Assembly: GCA_020627945.1 (NCBI GenBank)
Contig: JAHDFW010000002.1
Location: 24,219 to 76,094, forward strand
Reading direction: 5' to 3'
From: Cytophagales bacterium
GTDB lineage: Bacteria > Bacteroidota > Bacteroidia > Cytophagales > JAHDFW01
Length of the DNA: 51,876 bases
A model generated the notes under the pieces. That model was not told where the DNA came from and ran no database searches. It worked only from the letters and a program-made list of their open reading frames with translations. How positions within the stretch are numbered: position 1 is the first letter of the stretch; the number at the start of each line of letters is the position of its first letter. The translations under genes and the position numbers were made by a program. Shown here piece after piece: positions 20,240-29,553 of this stretch.

Positions 20240-20269
20240 TTGAATGATGCTGATATACTTGTTACTTTG
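20240..20269 (+). promoter_or_regulatory. Candidate promoter of the LytS-like kinase
   Basis: TTG (20240-20242), 19 nt spacer, TTACTTTG (20262-20269). This fits the Bacteroidota -33 TTG and -7 TAnnTTTG pattern with one mismatch. The ATG at 20276 follows after only 6 nt, so the mRNA could be leaderless or nearly so. Confidence 0.45.
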
Positions 20270-20275
20270 CATAGT

Positions 20276-21397
20276 ATGATTCAATATCGTAAAACCGCAA
20301 ATGAATTAATCGAACGTTTTTTTAGCAGTCGATTAGCCAGAAACATTACCTTTTGGATGTTTTTTGGGCTACTGAACATATACAACTATTCTGTACTTAA
20401 ACCTGGAAACGTATTGTCAAACCTTACTGCACTTCAACTGTTTGTGCTGTTCTCGAGTAGGTTTTTCATTTACGCGCCTCTTACGTATTTCAACAACTTG
20501 GTTCTATTACCTTTATTTTTAAACAAGGGAAAGTATATTTTGTACCTAACTAGTATAACTGCTGTGCTATTTTTAGGTTTGTATTATGTCAAATTTACGG
20601 TGATTCAAATTCAAGGTTTATTACCGCAAGAAATCGTAACAGATGTAAAAGATTTGCCCCCTGCAGCATTCTTGTTTTCACCACTCGTTTTTGTGTTAGG
20701 GTTTACCATGTCCAAATATGCTTTTGACTTTTATCTCAAACAGCGAAATACAGATAAGTTACATAAGGAAAATCTTATCAGTGAGTTGGATATATTGAAA
20801 TCTCAAATAAATCCTCACTTCCTTTTCAATGCTTTAAACACGATCTACGGGCTTTCTATTAGTCAACAACAAACTGAAACTACTTCTAACGCGGTCATTC
20901 AGTTATCGAACATTTTAAGATACAACTTATACGAATGTAATACTGATAAAGTACCCTTAGAAAAAGAAATAGAATATATCGAAAATTACCTAGAGTTTGC
21001 TAAGCTCCGAAGAAGTGATACAGCTCGAATTGACTATTCTAAAAAAGGAAACTTTAGTGGCCTACAAGTAGCTCCATTATTATTTATTCCGTTTATTGAA
21101 AATAGTTTTAAGCACGGTCCGGATAAAGCTCTGGAAAGTGGATGGGTAAATATCAGTATTAAGGTAGAAAACGACGAACTCACCTTTATTTGTGGGAATT
21201 CAAAACCTAACAATAAGGCTTCTAGCAACAATATTGACTCAGGAATAGGTCTAAATAACGTCAAAAGAAGGTTGGACCTTTTATATGGCAAAAATTACAA
21301 ACTGGTAATTAAAGAAGAAGATAATTTGTACTCTGTACTTCTGAAATTGGATTTACAACAATCAAAGCAAAACAAATGGCGATCAATTGCATCATAA
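20276..21397 (+). CDS. LytS-type sensor histidine kinase
   Basis: A 373-residue inner-membrane kinase. Four hydrophobic segments fill the first ~150 residues, followed by a short coiled coil (RNTDKLHKENLISELDILKSQ) and the His_kinase domain with INPHFLFNALNTIYGL, where the His is the likely phospho-acceptor. The ATPase part has FIPFIENSFKHG (N box) and GIGLNNVKRRLDLLYG (G box). The start is set at ATG 20276; an upstream in-frame TTG coincides with the -33 element. It overlaps the response regulator gene by 22 nt, so the two are co-translated partners. The signal is not evident. Confidence 0.92.
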   Translation: MIQYRKTANELIERFFSSRLARNITFWMFFGLLNIYNYSVLKPGNVLSNLTALQLFVLFSSRFFIYAPLTYFNNLVLLPLFLNKGKYILYLTSITAVLFLGLYYVKFTVIQIQGLLPQEIVTDVKDLPPAAFLFSPLVFVLGFTMSKYAFDFYLKQRNTDKLHKENLISELDILKSQINPHFLFNALNTIYGLSISQQQTETTSNAVIQLSNILRYNLYECNTDKVPLEKEIEYIENYLEFAKLRRSDTARIDYSKKGNFSGLQVAPLLFIPFIENSFKHGPDKALESGWVNISIKVENDELTFICGNSKPNNKASSNNIDSGIGLNNVKRRLDLLYGKNYKLVIKEEDNLYSVLLKLDLQQSKQNKWRSIAS

Positions 21398-22086
21398 CAG
21401 ACGATGAACCTATAGCGCGTAGCATTCTAAAAAACTACATTGACAAAATACCTGATTTCAATTTAGTGGGGGAATGTAATAATGCTCTTGAGACCATGAG
21501 TAAACTTAAAGAACAACAGGTTGATTTGCTATTTCTGGATATTCAAATGCCTGAAATCTCTGGGTTAGAATTTTTAAAGTCTCTTTCTAATCCTCCGCTG
21601 GTTATATTCACTACTGCATACCAAGAGTACGCACTTGAAGGATATGAACTAAACGTTTGTGATTATTTGCTCAAGCCAATTTCGTTTGATCGTTTTCTAA
21701 AAGCTGCCAACAAGGCCATGGATCGTTTGAAATTAAGCACTCCACAGCCTAATGCTGTTTTAAGTAATGCTGAAACTTCTAAAGAATACACCTTCATCAA
21801 AGACAGCGATGAACTAATAAAGGTCTGGTATAAAGAAATTCTTTATATCGAAGGTTTGAAAGACTACGTTAAAGTAATTTGTGAAGATAGACGCATAGTA
21901 ACCTTAAGTACTATGAAAAACATGGAACAAATGCTTCCATCAAATTTCAAACGAATTCATAGGTCATACATTATCAACACCGATCAAATCTTATCGATCA
22001 CTGGAAACAGTGTCCGCATTGGAAAAGAACTTATATCGTACGGTAAGAGTTATAAAGAGAATTTTGATGCCTTGAAAAAGCAGTAA
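21376..22086 (+). CDS. LytTR-family response regulator
   Basis: A 236-residue DNA-binding regulator. The receiver domain has D9, D10 and the phospho-acceptor D55 in LLFLDIQMPE, then T in FTTAYQEYALEGYELNVCDYLLKP. The C-terminal LytTR domain (about 135-236) has IKVWYKEILYIEGLKDYVKV, STMKNMEQMLP and FKRIHRSYIIN. It forms a two-component system with the overlapping upstream kinase. Such pairs in Bacteroidota control local or dispersed genes; no LytTR site could be assigned by eye. It converges with the Hsp70 gene, with 2 nt between the stops. Confidence 0.93.
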   Translation: MAINCIITDDEPIARSILKNYIDKIPDFNLVGECNNALETMSKLKEQQVDLLFLDIQMPEISGLEFLKSLSNPPLVIFTTAYQEYALEGYELNVCDYLLKPISFDRFLKAANKAMDRLKLSTPQPNAVLSNAETSKEYTFIKDSDELIKVWYKEILYIEGLKDYVKVICEDRRIVTLSTMKNMEQMLPSNFKRIHRSYIINTDQILSITGNSVRIGKELISYGKSYKENFDALKKQ

Positions 22087-24112: not shown

Positions 24113-24562
24113 ATGCGTATTGAAGAAGCTATAAAACAAGATAAATTCGGAAGTGTTTACCAAAAAGTATTTATCAACATTACTTTTACTCATAACTGGT
24201 TAAAAGACCTATACAAAGATACGTTTAAGGCATACGGGTTAACTATTCAACAATACAATGTACTAAGAATATTGAGAGGCGCATACCCCGATGTAAAATC
24301 CGCTGGGGAAATTAAATCTGTAATGATAGATAAGAGCCCTGATTTAACTAGGCTTATGGATCGATTGGTTGCTAAAGGATACGCAGAAAGAGAATTAAGT
24401 AGTACCAATCGTCGAAAAATAGATATTAAAATCACCAAAGAAGGTCTTGACCTCCTGTCTAACATGGAAGAGCAGGTTGATCTGCAGGAACGTCAACTTC
24501 ATCATCTGAGTGAAGATGAAGCAAATCAGCTGAGCGATTTACTGGATAAAATTCGAGGATAA
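24113..24562 (+). CDS. MarR family transcriptional regulator of the carotenoid cluster
   Basis: A 149-residue winged-helix protein. Helix-turn-helix: YGLTIQQYNVLRILRG then AGEIKSVMIDKSPDLTRLMDRLVAKGYAERE; wing: STNRRKIDIKITKEG. The C-terminal helix (LSEDEANQLSDLLDKIRG) belongs to the dimer interface. It stands 125 nt upstream of the merR-type gene on the same strand. A marR-merR-crt order is, as I recall, common in Flavobacteriales. It probably represses its own promoter and crtI through the TTTGTT/AACAAA element. Its ligand is unknown. Confidence 0.88.
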   Translation: MRIEEAIKQDKFGSVYQKVFINITFTHNWLKDLYKDTFKAYGLTIQQYNVLRILRGAYPDVKSAGEIKSVMIDKSPDLTRLMDRLVAKGYAERELSSTNRRKIDIKITKEGLDLLSNMEEQVDLQERQLHHLSEDEANQLSDLLDKIRG

Positions 24563-24626
24563 TCTACTAATTCAACCTTATAATTTCTTAAAATCTAATT
24601 TTTCTGTAACTTTTTCAGCCACACAT

Positions 24627-24657
24627 TTGGTGGATGAGTTTTTTTTTAGCACTTTTG
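24627..24657 (+). promoter_or_regulatory. Candidate promoter of the merR-type gene
   Basis: TTG (24627-24629), 20-nt spacer, CACTTTTG (24650-24657). It fits the Bacteroidota pattern with one mismatch in the first base of the -7 box. Confidence 0.5.
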
Positions 24658-24686
24658 TTTAATCTTTTACATGTTTAATTAAACAT
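24656..24686 (+). promoter_or_regulatory. TGTTTAA repeats and 16-bp palindrome: probable autoregulatory operator
   Basis: ATGTTTAATTAAACAT (24671-24686) is a perfect 16-bp palindrome ending 1 nt before the merR start codon. A further TGTTTAA stands at 24656-24662, 16 nt before the TGTTTAA of the palindrome, and overlaps the end of the -7 box. Matching half-sites recur upstream of crtI, so this is a candidate site for the B12-dependent MerR regulator itself. Confidence 0.55.
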
Positions 24687-24687
24687 T

Positions 24688-25578
24688 ATGAGTCAAAAGG
24701 CTATTAAAAGCGAATTTTCAATCAAGGATTTAGAAAACCTCAGCGGGGTTAAAGCACATACCATTAGGATTTGGGAAAAGCGCTATAATCTTTTGCAACC
24801 AAACAGATCGGATACGAATATTCGTAACTACGATCTAAATAATTTAACCAAGCTCCTTAATGTTTCCATTTTAAATGCGCATGGGTTTAAAATTTCTAAG
24901 ATCGCTGATCTTGGGGAGGATGAAATTATGCAGAAGGTAAAGGAATTGGTAATATCGAATAATACACACCACGCTATAAATGCTTTTAAAATAGCAATGG
25001 TTACATTCGATTCAGAACTTTTTGATAGAACCTATAATCAACTTCTTACTCAGCACTCTTTCCGTGAAATCTTTCTGGAGATCTTTGTAGAATTATTACA
25101 GCAAATGGGCTATCTATGGCAGACTAAAACCATTACGCCTGCTCAGGAGCATTTTATTTCCACTTTGATTAAGCAAAAAATATTAATAAATGTTGAGCGG
25201 ATTCAAAATGGAGGACATCGTTCTGATAAAACCTACATCTTGTTCTTACCTGTAAATGAAATCCATGACATAGGTCTTCTTTACATCCACTTTGAATTAT
25301 TACTTAAAGGACTTAAATCTATCTATCTGGGCTCCAGTGTTCCAATAGATAATCTTGCTGAAACTCAAAAAATATTCAAAAAGACTGAGTTTGTAAGTTA
25401 TTTCACAGTAGAACCTTCTATTGAAACAGTAGAAGAATACTTGCAAGAATTTGATCAAGTAATCTTGCAGGAAAGAGGAGAAAAGCTACATCTGCTGGGT
25501 AAAAATGCGATGAACACTGCTTCATTAAAGAACGTCATTAAATATCAAAGTATCCCCGAAGCTATCGAAAGCATCTAA
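24688..25578 (+). CDS. MerR-family regulator with B12-binding domain (CarH/LitR type)
   Basis: A 296-residue protein. Residues 9-75 are a MerR helix-turn-helix (SIKDLENLSGVKAHTIRIWEKRYNLLQP). Residues ~95-170 form a helical cobalamin-cap domain with W144 and E154-H155 in the W-x9-EH pattern of CarH photoreceptors. Residues ~180-290 form the Rossmann-type B12 domain with E191-I-H193-D-I-G196, matching the E-x-H-x-x-G cobalamin motif where His ligates cobalt. In CarH, adenosylcobalamin drives tetramer formation in the dark and light breaks it, releasing repression of crt genes. All key residues are retained here, so light sensing is plausible though inferred. It is followed directly by crtI. 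Confidence 0.9.
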   Translation: MSQKAIKSEFSIKDLENLSGVKAHTIRIWEKRYNLLQPNRSDTNIRNYDLNNLTKLLNVSILNAHGFKISKIADLGEDEIMQKVKELVISNNTHHAINAFKIAMVTFDSELFDRTYNQLLTQHSFREIFLEIFVELLQQMGYLWQTKTITPAQEHFISTLIKQKILINVERIQNGGHRSDKTYILFLPVNEIHDIGLLYIHFELLLKGLKSIYLGSSVPIDNLAETQKIFKKTEFVSYFTVEPSIETVEEYLQEFDQVILQERGEKLHLLGKNAMNTASLKNVIKYQSIPEAIESI

Positions 25579-25653
25579 ATGTTTAACACTTATTAAAAAA
25601 GATTAAACATTTCTTGCATTTTGTTTATCAATTAGTTTTATTTGTTAAACAAA
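25579..25653 (+). promoter_or_regulatory. crtI control region: half-sites, promoter and operator
   Basis: ATGTTTAA (25579-25586) and TTAAACAT (25603-25610) repeat the half-sites of the merR operator in inverted order, 16 nt apart. A promoter fits TTG (25614-25616), 20-nt spacer, TTTATTTG (25637-25644). TTTGTT-A-AACAAA (25641-25653) overlaps its -7 box just as the similar element does at marR. The ATG of crtI is at 25662. Two regulators acting on one promoter is the simplest reading. Confidence 0.5.
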
Positions 25654-25661
25654 TTTGCACA

Positions 25662-27140
25662 ATGGCTTTTAACACATCTATAATAGGATCAGGATTTTCT
25701 TCAGTTGCCACTGCTTGTTATTTGGCTCAAGCCGGACACACTGTTACCGTTTATGAAAAAAACGAACAGTTCGGCGGCAGAGCTAGACAATGGGAGCATG
25801 AAGGGTTCAAATTCGATATGGGACCAACATGGTATTGGATGCCTGATGTGTTTGAGCGATTCTTTGCTGATTTTAATAAAAAGATTGAAGACTATTACCA
25901 ACTAGAAAAGTTAAGTCCAGGGTATCGAGTTTATTTTGGTGAAGAAAATCATTTAGACATTTCTGACAACTACGATAAAGTAGTTCAATCTTTCGAAGAT
26001 TGGGAACCTGGAGCTGGTCAAGCCTTGCAAAAATTCATCAAAAAGGCAGGTAACAATTATGATGTTGCTATAAAGAAATTGGTTTATAAACCAGGGCTAT
26101 CTCCCCTAGAATTGGTCACCAAAGATACCATGTTTGAAGTTCCTCAGTTTCTTGGAACGATCCGTGGACATGTAAATAAGAACTTCAAGGACACGCGTCT
26201 GAAGCAAGTACTTGAATTTCCAGTACTTTTCTTAGGTGCTAAACCATCTCAGACGCCTCTTTTCTACAGCTTCATGAATTTTGCTGACCTTAAACTAGGC
26301 ACTTGGTATCCTAAAGGAGGAATGCGTTCAGTAATTGAAGGAGCAATCCAACTCGCAAAAGAATTAGGAGTCAAATTTGTAAGTAATGCGAACGTAACCG
26401 CAATTAACTCTAACCAGGGGCACGTTAGTTCATTGACCATTAATGATAAAAATATTGATTGTGATTTAGTAGTAAGTGGTGCTGATTACGCACATACCGA
26501 AACATTACTAAGTAGCAAAGATCGCAACTATAGCAGCGGATACTGGGATAAAAAATTACTGGCGCCTTCCGCACTATTGTTTTACGTAGGATTTGATAAA
26601 CCGCTGGAAAAAGTAATTCATCATACGCTATTTTTTGATGCTTCATTTGATGAACATGCCAATTCAATTTATGATGATCAGACTTGGCCTGAAAAACCTT
26701 TGTTTTATGCCAGTTTCCCAAGTAAAACAGATGACACCATAGCTCCAGTTGGAAAGGAAGCAGCTATTTTTCTAATTCCTTTAGCTCCAGACCTTGAAGA
26801 TAATGACGAGCTAAGAAGTAAATACTTTGATATTATCTTAAATCGACTTGAAAAACACACTGGTCAATCTTTGAAAGATCAAATTCTCTTTCAACGCTCA
26901 TACTGTGTCAATGATTTCAAGGAAGATTACAACTCGTTAAAAGGTAATGCTTATGGGCTAGCCAATACATTGACTCAAACAGCATTCCTCAGACCGAAAC
27001 TAAAAAGCAAAAAGCTTAAAAACTTATTCTACACTGGTCAATTGACCGTGCCGGGACCTGGTGTTCCTCCTGCATTAATTTCAGGAAAACTTGTATCAGA
27101 ACTTATCACTAACACTTTTAACAATGAAAAGTCTATTTGA
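25662..27140 (+). CDS. crtI: Phytoene desaturase
   Basis: FAD-dependent enzyme that introduces double bonds into phytoene to give lycopene or a related product. The 492-residue protein has the dinucleotide-binding motif SIIGSGFSSVATACY near residues 6-20, followed by FGGRARQWEHEGFKFDMGPTWYWMP, and the C-terminal NLFYTGQLTVPGPGVPPALISGKLVSE that closes the FAD site. The start is taken at ATG 25662, since the frame from 25614 covers the promoter. It overlaps crtB by 17 nt, so the two are co-translated. Whether it stops at lycopene or neurosporene cannot be read from sequence. Confidence 0.95.
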   Translation: MAFNTSIIGSGFSSVATACYLAQAGHTVTVYEKNEQFGGRARQWEHEGFKFDMGPTWYWMPDVFERFFADFNKKIEDYYQLEKLSPGYRVYFGEENHLDISDNYDKVVQSFEDWEPGAGQALQKFIKKAGNNYDVAIKKLVYKPGLSPLELVTKDTMFEVPQFLGTIRGHVNKNFKDTRLKQVLEFPVLFLGAKPSQTPLFYSFMNFADLKLGTWYPKGGMRSVIEGAIQLAKELGVKFVSNANVTAINSNQGHVSSLTINDKNIDCDLVVSGADYAHTETLLSSKDRNYSSGYWDKKLLAPSALLFYVGFDKPLEKVIHHTLFFDASFDEHANSIYDDQTWPEKPLFYASFPSKTDDTIAPVGKEAAIFLIPLAPDLEDNDELRSKYFDIILNRLEKHTGQSLKDQILFQRSYCVNDFKEDYNSLKGNAYGLANTLTQTAFLRPKLKSKKLKNLFYTGQLTVPGPGVPPALISGKLVSELITNTFNNEKSI

Positions 27141-27966
27141 TTCCGTATGTACCGAAATAAGTCAACTAGTGACTTCACGTTATAGCACTTCTTTTTCGCT
27201 CGCTGTAAAGATGCTTTCTCCTTCTATACAACCCGAAATCCATGCGATTTACGGATTTGTTAGATTAGCTGACGAAATTGTAGATACATTTCATGGTTAC
27301 GAACAAGAAATGTTATTAAATGAGCTAGAACAAGATTTGCAAACCGCATTAAAAAGGAAAATAAGTACAAATCCTATTTTACATTCGTTTCAAGAAACCG
27401 TTCACAAATACGGCATTGATTATGAATTAGTAGACGCATTTCTTAAAAGCATGCGCTTTGATTTGCACAAAAGCAATTATGATGATACTGCGTCCTATGA
27501 AGAGTATATTTATGGATCGGCAGATGTAGTTGGCCTTATGTGTTTAAAAGTATTCGTTGGTGGAGATCAAGAGCAGTATGATAAACTTGAGTATTCTGCT
27601 AAAAAATTGGGAAGTGCTTTCCAAAAAGTAAATTTCTTGCGTGACCTAAAGGACGACACCCTAAATTTACAACGTTCCTATTTCCCTAACTTGAAAGTGG
27701 ATTATTCTCTTACAACAGAAACAAAAGAAGCAATCATCCGTGAAATTGAACATGATTTCGATGAAGCCTACAAGGGGATTATCCAACTTCCGGTAGAAGC
27801 TAAATTTGGAGTATATACGGCGTATATCTACTATCGAAGATTATTGCAAAAGCTTAAAGAAACAAAGGCAGAAAAAATCATGGATCGCAGAATTAGAATT
27901 AGCAATCCAATCAAAATAGGACTACTTGCCCGTTCGTTTGTGAATTACAAATTGGATTTAATGTAA
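27124..27966 (+). CDS. crtB: Phytoene synthase
   Basis: Condenses two geranylgeranyl-PP to phytoene, the first committed carotenoid step. The 280-residue protein has the two Asp-rich metal/diphosphate motifs, D50-E-I-V-D54 in FVRLADEIVDTF and NFLRDLKDD, with the conserved RSYFP after the second. The start is set at ATG 27124 inside the crtI 3' end; the frame from 27091 would be longer than usual. It is translationally coupled to crtI. Confidence 0.95.
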   Translation: MKSLFDSVCTEISQLVTSRYSTSFSLAVKMLSPSIQPEIHAIYGFVRLADEIVDTFHGYEQEMLLNELEQDLQTALKRKISTNPILHSFQETVHKYGIDYELVDAFLKSMRFDLHKSNYDDTASYEEYIYGSADVVGLMCLKVFVGGDQEQYDKLEYSAKKLGSAFQKVNFLRDLKDDTLNLQRSYFPNLKVDYSLTTETKEAIIREIEHDFDEAYKGIIQLPVEAKFGVYTAYIYYRRLLQKLKETKAEKIMDRRIRISNPIKIGLLARSFVNYKLDLM

Positions 27967-27986
27967 GTAAATAGTTGAGGTAAGGA

Positions 27987-28538
27987 ATGAGGCAATTTCG
28001 ATATTTGGCAGCATTATGCTCCACATTGATTTTTTTGAATACTTCTTTAGAATTGCAAGCACAAGTTCATTTTTCATTAGACGTGAGTGAGGTTCGATCA
28101 AATTTTCTTGTAATAAATACGGAGTCTGAACTTGAAACATTTTTGGTTTCAGCAAAAACGGATACCGCGCATTTGACTCAGGCTTACTATGGAGCTGCAA
28201 AAGCCCGAATGGCCGAATTTGTATTTGCACCTTGGACTAAGTACAGCTATTTTCAGGAAGGTGTTCGAAAAATTGAACACTCCATTAAAACGGAACCTTC
28301 GTTAGATAATCACTATCTTCGTTTAATAATTCAGTTGAATTGCCCCGAATTTCTGGGTTACAACAGCAACATTAAAAATGATTTTGCGTATTTGAATTCA
28401 ATTAAGAACTGGACCAATGTTGATCCAGATCAAATTCGATTAATGATTGAATCTCTTAGCAAAGCAAGATTTGCTTCTAATTACGATAAGCAAATTAATA
28501 ATTTGAAGCAACTGTTTATGACCACACAAAAACGATAA
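27987..28538 (+). CDS. Unknown exported protein inside the carotenoid operon
   Basis: A 183-residue protein that I do not recognise. It starts with a signal peptide (MRQFRYLAALCSTLIFLNTSLELQAQ), so it is expected in the periplasm. The mature part is helical in character: DTAHLTQAYYGAAKARMAEFVFAPWTKYSYFQEGVRKIEHSI, then NHYLRLIIQLNCPEFLGYNSNIKNDFAYLNSI. The AAKARM and NHYLRL helices recall TPR-like helical pairs, but no clear repeat is seen. It lies 20 nt after crtB and 1 nt before idi, so it is transcribed with the pigment genes. A role in carotenoid or membrane handling is only suggested by position. Confidence 0.75.
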   Translation: MRQFRYLAALCSTLIFLNTSLELQAQVHFSLDVSEVRSNFLVINTESELETFLVSAKTDTAHLTQAYYGAAKARMAEFVFAPWTKYSYFQEGVRKIEHSIKTEPSLDNHYLRLIIQLNCPEFLGYNSNIKNDFAYLNSIKNWTNVDPDQIRLMIESLSKARFASNYDKQINNLKQLFMTTQKR

Positions 28539-28539
28539 A

Positions 28540-29079
28540 ATGAGCATTGATAAGAATTTAGTCGTATTGGTAAACGAACAAGATCAAGATCTTGGTACTT
28601 GTGAGAAAATGGAAGCTCACGAAAAAGGTTTATTGCACCGAGCAATATCTGTATTTGTTTTTAATGATAAAGGTGAATGGCTACTCCAACGTAGAGCTGC
28701 TACCAAATATCATTGCGGAGGGATGTGGTCTAACACATGTTGTTCCCACCCATTTTTTGGCGAAACTCCACATGAAGCAGCAAATAGACGTTTAATGGAA
28801 GAAATGGGAATGAGTACTTCCCTTCATTTTCAATTTCCGTTTCTATACAAGGCACAGGTCAACAATGACCTCATAGAACATGAATTAGATCATGTATTTA
28901 TCGGATACAGTAATGATATCCCAGTATTAAATCTTGAAGAGGTTGATCAATTTAAATATGTGAGTTCGGAAGAGCTAAGTCACCAAATGTCAACAAACGG
29001 GGATCAATTTACACCATGGTTTAGAATGCTGCATGAAAAGTTGAAAGACGTTTTAGAAACTAAAAAAATCGCTTCTTAA
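28540..29079 (+). CDS. idi: Isopentenyl-diphosphate delta-isomerase, type I
   Basis: Interconverts IPP and DMAPP to supply isoprenoid precursors. The 179-residue Nudix-fold enzyme has H27 and H33 (AHEKGLLHRA), the active-site Cys in SNTCCSHP (67-68), and the ETPHEAANRRLMEEMG Nudix segment with E87 and E88. Length and order fit type I IDI. It starts 1 nt after the preceding stop and is followed by crtZ after 6 nt, so the operon is tight. Confidence 0.95.
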   Translation: MSIDKNLVVLVNEQDQDLGTCEKMEAHEKGLLHRAISVFVFNDKGEWLLQRRAATKYHCGGMWSNTCCSHPFFGETPHEAANRRLMEEMGMSTSLHFQFPFLYKAQVNNDLIEHELDHVFIGYSNDIPVLNLEEVDQFKYVSSEELSHQMSTNGDQFTPWFRMLHEKLKDVLETKKIAS

Positions 29080-29085
29080 AGACGT

Positions 29086-29553
29086 ATGATACTTACATCA
29101 TCCATCATATTAACATTTTTAGCCATGGAAGGCGTAGCTTGGTTTACACACAAATATGTGATGCATGGTTGGTTTTGGTTTTTACACGAAGATCACCACG
29201 TAACAGACAAGCATGATGGATTCTTTGAACGAAATGACTGGTTCTTTGTATTGTTTGCAACCATGTCTATGACTGCGTATGTTTCGGCATCATTATATAA
29301 CTGGCCGATCGCGTTAGGAGTTGGAATTGGAATTTCAATATATGGGGCAACTTACTTCTTCATACATGATCTTTTTATACACCAAAGAATAAAAGTACTT
29401 CGAAATACTAATAACCCCTACTTGAAAGCCATTCGAAGAGCACATAAAATTCATCATAAGCATTTAGGTAAAGAAGAAGGAGAGTGCTTTGGAATGCTCT
29501 GGGTTCCGATGAAGTATTATAAAACCGAATTTGAACGCGCAAGACAAGTTTAA
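29086..29553 (+). CDS. crtZ: Beta-carotene hydroxylase
   Basis: Di-iron membrane hydroxylase that adds OH groups to the 3 and 3' positions of beta-carotene, giving zeaxanthin. The 155-residue protein has the His motifs HKYVMH (22-27), HEDHH (34-38), FIHDLFIH and HKIHHKH, and four hydrophobic segments. It is the last gene of the crt operon seen here. Beta-ring formation needs a lycopene cyclase, which is not in the window. A weak stem (AGTCT/AGACT) follows, but no clear terminator. Confidence 0.94.
   Translation: MILTSSIILTFLAMEGVAWFTHKYVMHGWFWFLHEDHHVTDKHDGFFERNDWFFVLFATMSMTAYVSASLYNWPIALGVGIGISIYGATYFFIHDLFIHQRIKVLRNTNNPYLKAIRRAHKIHHKHLGKEEGECFGMLWVPMKYYKTEFERARQV

Follow-up and report, generated by a model that had tools for sequence, protein, structure and literature searches.

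A conserved inverted repeat upstream of merR and crtI is the probable operator of a CarH-like MerR/B12 regulator in Bacteroidota

The window analyzed in this study, a stretch of 51,876 nucleotides from a Cytophagales bacterium (GCA_020627945.1, contig JAHDFW010000002.1, positions 24,219 to 76,094 of the forward strand), carries a gene for a MerR/B12 regulator next to the carotenoid gene crtI, and the sequence TGTTTAA recurs in the control regions of both genes. The question raised by this locus is whether that recurrence marks a dedicated operator of the regulator, as an original prediction had proposed, and, if so, what the unit of recognition would be. The letters on which the proposal was built are all present at both genes: ATGTTTAATTAAACAT at 24671-24686, with a third TGTTTAA upstream of it at 24656, 16 nt before the copy at 24672, in front of merR, and the 8-mers ATGTTTAA (25579-25586) and TTAAACAT (25603-25610) in front of the crtI start codon. 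The features of the region are listed in Table 1.

Table 1. Genes and sequence elements of the merR-crtI region, numbered from the first nucleotide of the window
Feature	Position	Strand	Description
MarR-family gene	24113-24562		Directly upstream of merR
Presumed merR promoter	24626-24657	+	TTTG (24626-24629), 20 bp, CACTTTTG (24650-24657); read from sequence
Box at merR	24657-24684	none	GTTTAAT-N14-ATTAAAC, perfect
16-bp palindrome ATGTTTAATTAAACAT	24671-24686	none	Ends 1 nt before the merR ATG (24688)
merR	24688-25578	+	CarH/LitR-like regulator, 296 aa
Box 1 at crtI	25581-25608	none	GTTTAAC-N14-ATTAAAC, perfect
Presumed crtI promoter	25614-25644	+	TTG (25614-25616), 20 bp, TTTATTTG (25637-25644); read from sequence
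Box 2 at crtI	25623-25650	none	GTTTATC-N14-GTTAAAC, 1 mismatch
crtI	25662-27140	+	Bifunctional phytoene desaturase (CrtID); NF058655 above cut-off
crtB-like phytoene synthase gene	27124-27966	+	Next cluster gene; SQS_PSY match
idi, isopentenyl-diphosphate isomerase	28540-29079	+	Profile score above cut-off
crtZ-like carotene hydroxylase gene	29086-29553	+	Family assigned from sequence, without a Pfam or NCBIfam match

The half-sites are arranged in a unit that differs from the one first envisaged. TGTTTAA at 24656 pairs with TTAAACA at 24679 (24657-24663 with 24678-24684), and the two crtI 8-mers pair with each other (25581-25587 with 25602-25608); the candidate operator unit is a 28-bp inverted repeat, GTTTAAY-N14-RTTAAAC, with the extended form TTGTTTAAY-N14-RTTAAACAA, which is referred to here as the box. 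At crtI, a second box lies 42 bp downstream of the first, on the presumed promoter, and tandem boxes at a distance of 42 to 44 bp also recur in relatives. The right half of ATGTTTAATTAAACAT is the right half-site of the merR box; its left half, ATGTTTAA at 24671-24678, is an additional, unconserved half-site that falls within the box spacer, creates the 16-bp palindrome and was not seen in relatives. This additional half-site is perhaps a third binding position. The palindrome itself was rejected as the unit, as it is unconserved in orthologues and common in shuffled sequence (a shuffled window is expected to have 1.3 perfect 16-bp palindromes, and the actual window has four), and counts of TGTTTAA proved uninformative, with 20 seen in the window against 21.6 expected and no enrichment.

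The spaced dyad behaves differently. There are two perfect dyads in the window against a mean of 0.007 per shuffle, and two were never reached in 300 dinucleotide shuffles. The 80 closest regulator genes, fetched by protein similarity alone, were combined with 29 from order-mates to give 109 loci; among these, the N14 spacer occurred 35 times, against an average of 0.48 and a maximum of 10 for the other spacers from 0 to 60, and a peak at N58 represents the outer distance of tandem boxes. Outside the search pattern, the boxes have T at positions -1 and -2 in 93% of cases and A at +28 in 96%, which is again symmetric.

Conservation in orthologous regions, on which the original prediction had staked itself, was found at both genes. 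A box with at most two mismatches was present in the 130 bp before merR in 49 of the 80 loci, against about 1.2 expected, and the region upstream of crtI (after merR) contained a box with at most one mismatch in 28 of 80, where none was expected in scaled nulls; the remainder were near background. The spacing of the box upstream of merR is identical in five relative loci, and many Flavobacteriaceae have one good half-site only at merR and no good box at crtI. From the merR and crtI match counts, the predicted operator is kept at one place only in some clades.

In the 3.87-Mb genome to which the window belongs, a perfect box occurs exactly three times, at merR, at crtI and at a photolyase operon, each time before light-protection genes; thus, the motif also stood up when its frequency across the genome was considered. 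The third perfect box, which is on another contig, lies immediately upstream of a photolyase gene that heads an apparent operon with epimerase-like and CrtI/CrtD-like genes. The photolyase promoter reads TTTTG-N19-TATATTTG-TTAAAC; one half-site is inside the spacer and the other starts where the -7 element ends, at its final G. Boxes with one mismatch are located between a flavin-reductase gene and a TetR-ABC1-kinase operon, where -7 boxes are present in both directions, and before a homologue of an uncharacterized family that has perfect boxes in three relatives. A further box with one mismatch, which precedes a TonB-dependent-receptor-like gene, may be due to chance. Two unrelated genomes, this one and one with a weak regulator match only, also have a box-like site in front of a PspC-like gene of 72 aa. 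No rhodopsin match was obtained in this genome, in a search whose positive controls also stayed silent.

The predicted regulon extends well beyond merR and crtI. Twenty related genomes contained 73 perfect boxes, against 11 matches to reversed-pattern controls, and 73 of the 74 boxes in these genomes and the window's own were intergenic. Most of the 20 genomes were picked for a boxed merR-crtI region, which partly determines the counts for crtI (15 boxes) and the regulator gene (6) and not those for the other downstream genes: fasciclin-domain genes (11), TetR_C_23 genes (5), photolyase (4), flavin reductase (3), the uncharacterized family (3), GTP cyclohydrolase I (FolE) (2) and a family of 155 to 165 aa that we read as SRPBCC-like and that lacks a Pfam match (5), together with single cases that include rhodopsin. 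Within the window's own order, a box that is often doubled 44 bp apart precedes an ECF sigma gene adjoining the regulator, and others precede the regulator gene, crtI, crtZ and one rhodopsin gene.

Several observations on the targets stand somewhat apart. Fasciclin-domain lipoprotein genes, at ten loci, are the second commonest box target. At one locus, a perfect box lies 18 bp upstream of a dehydroquinate-synthase-family gene, whose product might serve as an enzyme in a sunscreen-type pathway. In two genomes, a box is located 216 to 221 bp before a primary-type sigma-70 gene; no consensus is known for the second RpoD of Dokdonia (PMC3587595), so light induction of such a second RpoD is conceivable.

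A box 17 bp before the proteorhodopsin gene of one metagenome-assembled genome prompted an independent search. Rhodopsin was found in 181 of the 399 genomes of the same order (Flavobacteriales), the 30 closest were fetched, and 25 upstream regions were analyzable. A box with at most two core mismatches was present in 17 of these 25 regions (shuffle p ≤0.03 for each of the 17), a proportion that describes the nearest relatives of a boxed rhodopsin rather than a general frequency; nearly all of these boxes lie within about 70 bp of the ATG, with one at 92. Among the genomes with a rhodopsin box, at least 14 also had a box with at most one mismatch at the regulator locus, whereas the regulator-locus box was missing in seven of the eight genomes without a rhodopsin box. 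Because the seven no-box regulators form one clade, this contrast is best read as close to a single evolutionary event. An alternative shared motif was sought in the seven no-box rhodopsin genomes and was not found.

Which protein reads the box? The merR product combines a MerR winged helix, a B12-binding_2 four-helix bundle and a Rossmann domain (Pfam MerR_1 and B12-binding_2). The best PDB matches of its AlphaFold model (pLDDT 90.5) are all T. thermophilus CarH (best Foldseek E value, 9e-14), and alignment with 5c8d showed that the B12/light motifs, W144-x9-E154-H155 and E191-x-H193-x-x-G196, are kept, as are both motifs in nearly all of the 80 closest homologues. The CarH equivalog NF052513 is still its best NCBIfam family; however, the score of 61.4 bits is far below the cut-off of 400, and for that reason we refer to the protein as CarH-like rather than as CarH.

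It can be envisioned that this regulator reads the box without B12 or light, perhaps via a partner or a redox signal, in the manner of CarA and the class II LitR proteins, which function without a B12 requirement (PMC9304148, PMC9758184). Such a reading would suit the Crocinitomicaceae relatives, where Wx9EH is replaced by Wx9ER and the boxes are perfect or nearly so, and the other box-bearing clades that have altered ExHxxG motifs; it is nevertheless unlikely for the protein studied here, given that both motifs are intact in it and in nearly all of its closest homologues. Since the Wx9ER relatives retain perfect boxes, B12/light control may be distinct from box reading and may have been altered in some lineages, such as the Crocinitomicaceae.

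The regulator's own gene is among those preceded by a box, which favors it as the reader. Five complete genomes of at least 2.5 Mb that lack the regulator had two boxes in total, of which one falls within an open reading frame, and 22 comparison genomes with the regulator, mostly from the same families, had 38 boxes (10 for the controls). TetR or MarR dimers also bind palindromes, and the box might therefore be the operator of another homodimeric regulator, such as the TetR_C_23 protein encoded beside the ABC1-kinase gene or the MarR-family protein encoded upstream of merR. TetR genes do bear the box in several genomes, and the MarR gene adjoins merR; however, the TetR homologue is absent from 11 box-bearing genomes, and a MarR gene was found near merR in none of the 80 merR-crtI loci, so that the copy in the window appears to be a local addition. 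Furthermore, CarH contacts TnnACA in its operator (PMC9304148, PMC8156234), and the half-site TAAACA fits this pattern, the TAAAC of perfect boxes being followed by A in 96% of cases. We consider recognition by another regulator to be quite improbable.

The position of the boxes relative to promoter elements bears on their function. The merR box overlaps the presumed -7 element, CACTTTTG, which is one mismatch from the Bacteroidota -7 box TANNTTTG, and the 5' leader. At crtI, the right half-site of box 2 starts at the final G of TTTATTTG, and TANNTTTG ends on a half-site G in 30 of 70 boxes, on the left half-site in 14 and on the right in 16. Two hexamers at a fixed spacing may resemble a bipartite promoter, and in order-mates the box stands directly before an ECF sigma gene, which could suggest a -35/-10-like promoter for an alternative or ECF sigma factor in place of a repressor site. 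This explanation has very little to recommend it, however, as the element is symmetric, the RpoD -7 box falls on either half-site about equally often, and boxes occur in both orientations, in tandem and at varying distances from genes. If an A+T-rich 7-mer simply recurred by chance in a genome that is itself A+T-rich, this would account for the unenriched TGTTTAA and for the palindromes common in shuffles, but such an explanation is contradicted for the rare, specific and conserved N14 dyad by the shuffles, the reversed controls and the orthologue upstream counts and can be dismissed.

We propose, with a probability of roughly 0.78, that the CarH-like MerR/B12 regulator uses GTTTAAY-N14-RTTAAAC as its operator and that it would repress its targets in the dark, release them in the light and regulate its own gene. 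The original prediction of a dedicated operator is supported, the motif being conserved and rare within the genome, with two corrections: its unit is the N14 dyad and not the compact palindrome, and the predicted regulon is wider than merR and crtI. In the scheme that we infer for the binding of the regulator to the box, for repression, for the oligomeric form and for the B12/light switch, the cobalamin-bound protein would in the dark place one DNA-binding domain on each half-site, such that a B12-bound dimer or tetramer would bridge two half-sites on one face of the DNA, 21 bp apart center to center. RNA polymerase would be blocked at merR itself as well as at crtI, the photolyase operon and further photoprotection genes; this block is proposed because the half-sites overlap the -7 element. 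Upon illumination, the Co-C bond would be broken, the protein would disassemble and the promoters would be freed. In relatives, the same operator would add the ECF sigma gene and, in Flavobacteriales, proteorhodopsin. The broader claim, that a Bacteroidota lineage of CarH-like B12 photoreceptors reads an inverted-repeat operator and directly controls photolyase, FolE, ECF or sigma-70 factors and Flavobacteriales proteorhodopsin, has about an even chance of being correct.

The genes crtI and crtB adjoin the regulator in 79 of the 80 merR loci, and a crtZ homologue is present in 75 of 80. Because the regulator is closer to its nearest Flavobacteriales proteins (59% identity) than to the best order-mate (52%), it is possible that the merR-crtI cluster (24688-29553) was acquired by horizontal transfer. 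Elsewhere in the window, positions 20240-22086 hold a histidine-kinase-like gene and, after it, a gene for a response regulator of the LytTR type, both identified from sequence only.

The proposed system is reminiscent of CarH of Thermus thermophilus and Bacillus megaterium (class I LitR), with which it shares the MerR, four-helix bundle and Rossmann B12 domains, Wx9EH and ExHxxG, the TnnACA half-site, a carotenoid target beside the regulator gene and an operator over promoter elements, the last of these being predicted here. Unlike CarH operators, which consist of three or four tandem 11-bp direct repeats, the box is an inverted repeat with half-sites 21 bp apart center to center and is sometimes doubled 42 to 44 bp apart; in addition, the regulon is wider and the protein falls far below the NCBIfam CarH cut-off. 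When the spacing of TnnACA was checked in the crtI region, CarH-style 11-bp direct repeats were not found: the motif occurs on the plus strand at 25583, 25604 and 25646 and on the minus strand at 25580, 25622 and 25643, in inverted pairs with steps of 21 and 42 bp.

Likewise, the class II LitR proteins of Pseudomonas (PplR1/PmlR2) govern a network that takes in photolyase, FolE and further light-induced genes, through two half-sites at a fixed spacing; however, their site, TGTACA-N12-TGTACA (PMC9758184), differs in half-site and spacing, and these proteins lack a complete B12 domain and are controlled by a LOV protein. At the Myxococcus PB (Pcrt) promoter, the CarA/CarH operator is also a doubled site for a repressor of a carotenoid promoter, and it was there that inverted repeats were first proposed, but the regulon consists essentially of carotenoid genes and 11-bp direct repeats were later favored for CarH proteins (PMC9304148). 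Dyad symmetry is common to the classical MerR-family operators (CueR and MerR, 21- to 22-bp dyads), although the dyad described here is wider and is not set within a 19- to 20-bp promoter spacer of the kind that those activators require (PMC5045206). MliR of Bizionia (PMC9478572), which is MerR-like, was set aside as a different protein of 109 aa without an effector domain. No CarH operator in Bacteroidota was found in a literature search that mostly did not reach subscription journals. The components belong to the known CarH/LitR kind, and it is the inverted-repeat operator that differs from those of characterized CarH proteins.

Induction of carotenoids, photolyases and proteorhodopsin by light is well documented in Bacteroidota, and none of the papers found named a regulator for them. 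The authors of a study of Chryseobacterium lacus detected neither car nor lit genes and invoked an unknown regulator for its light-induced pigments (PMC7064467), and control of the opsin promoter in Dokdonia was left unexplained (PMC3587595). With an operator defined and a candidate reader at hand, the question of this regulator becomes testable. If the proposal is true, inverted CarH-type half-sites would show B12 photoreceptor operators to be more plastic than is now known; if the broader claim also holds, a light-driven proton pump would in Flavobacteriales be switched on by a vitamin B12 light sensor.
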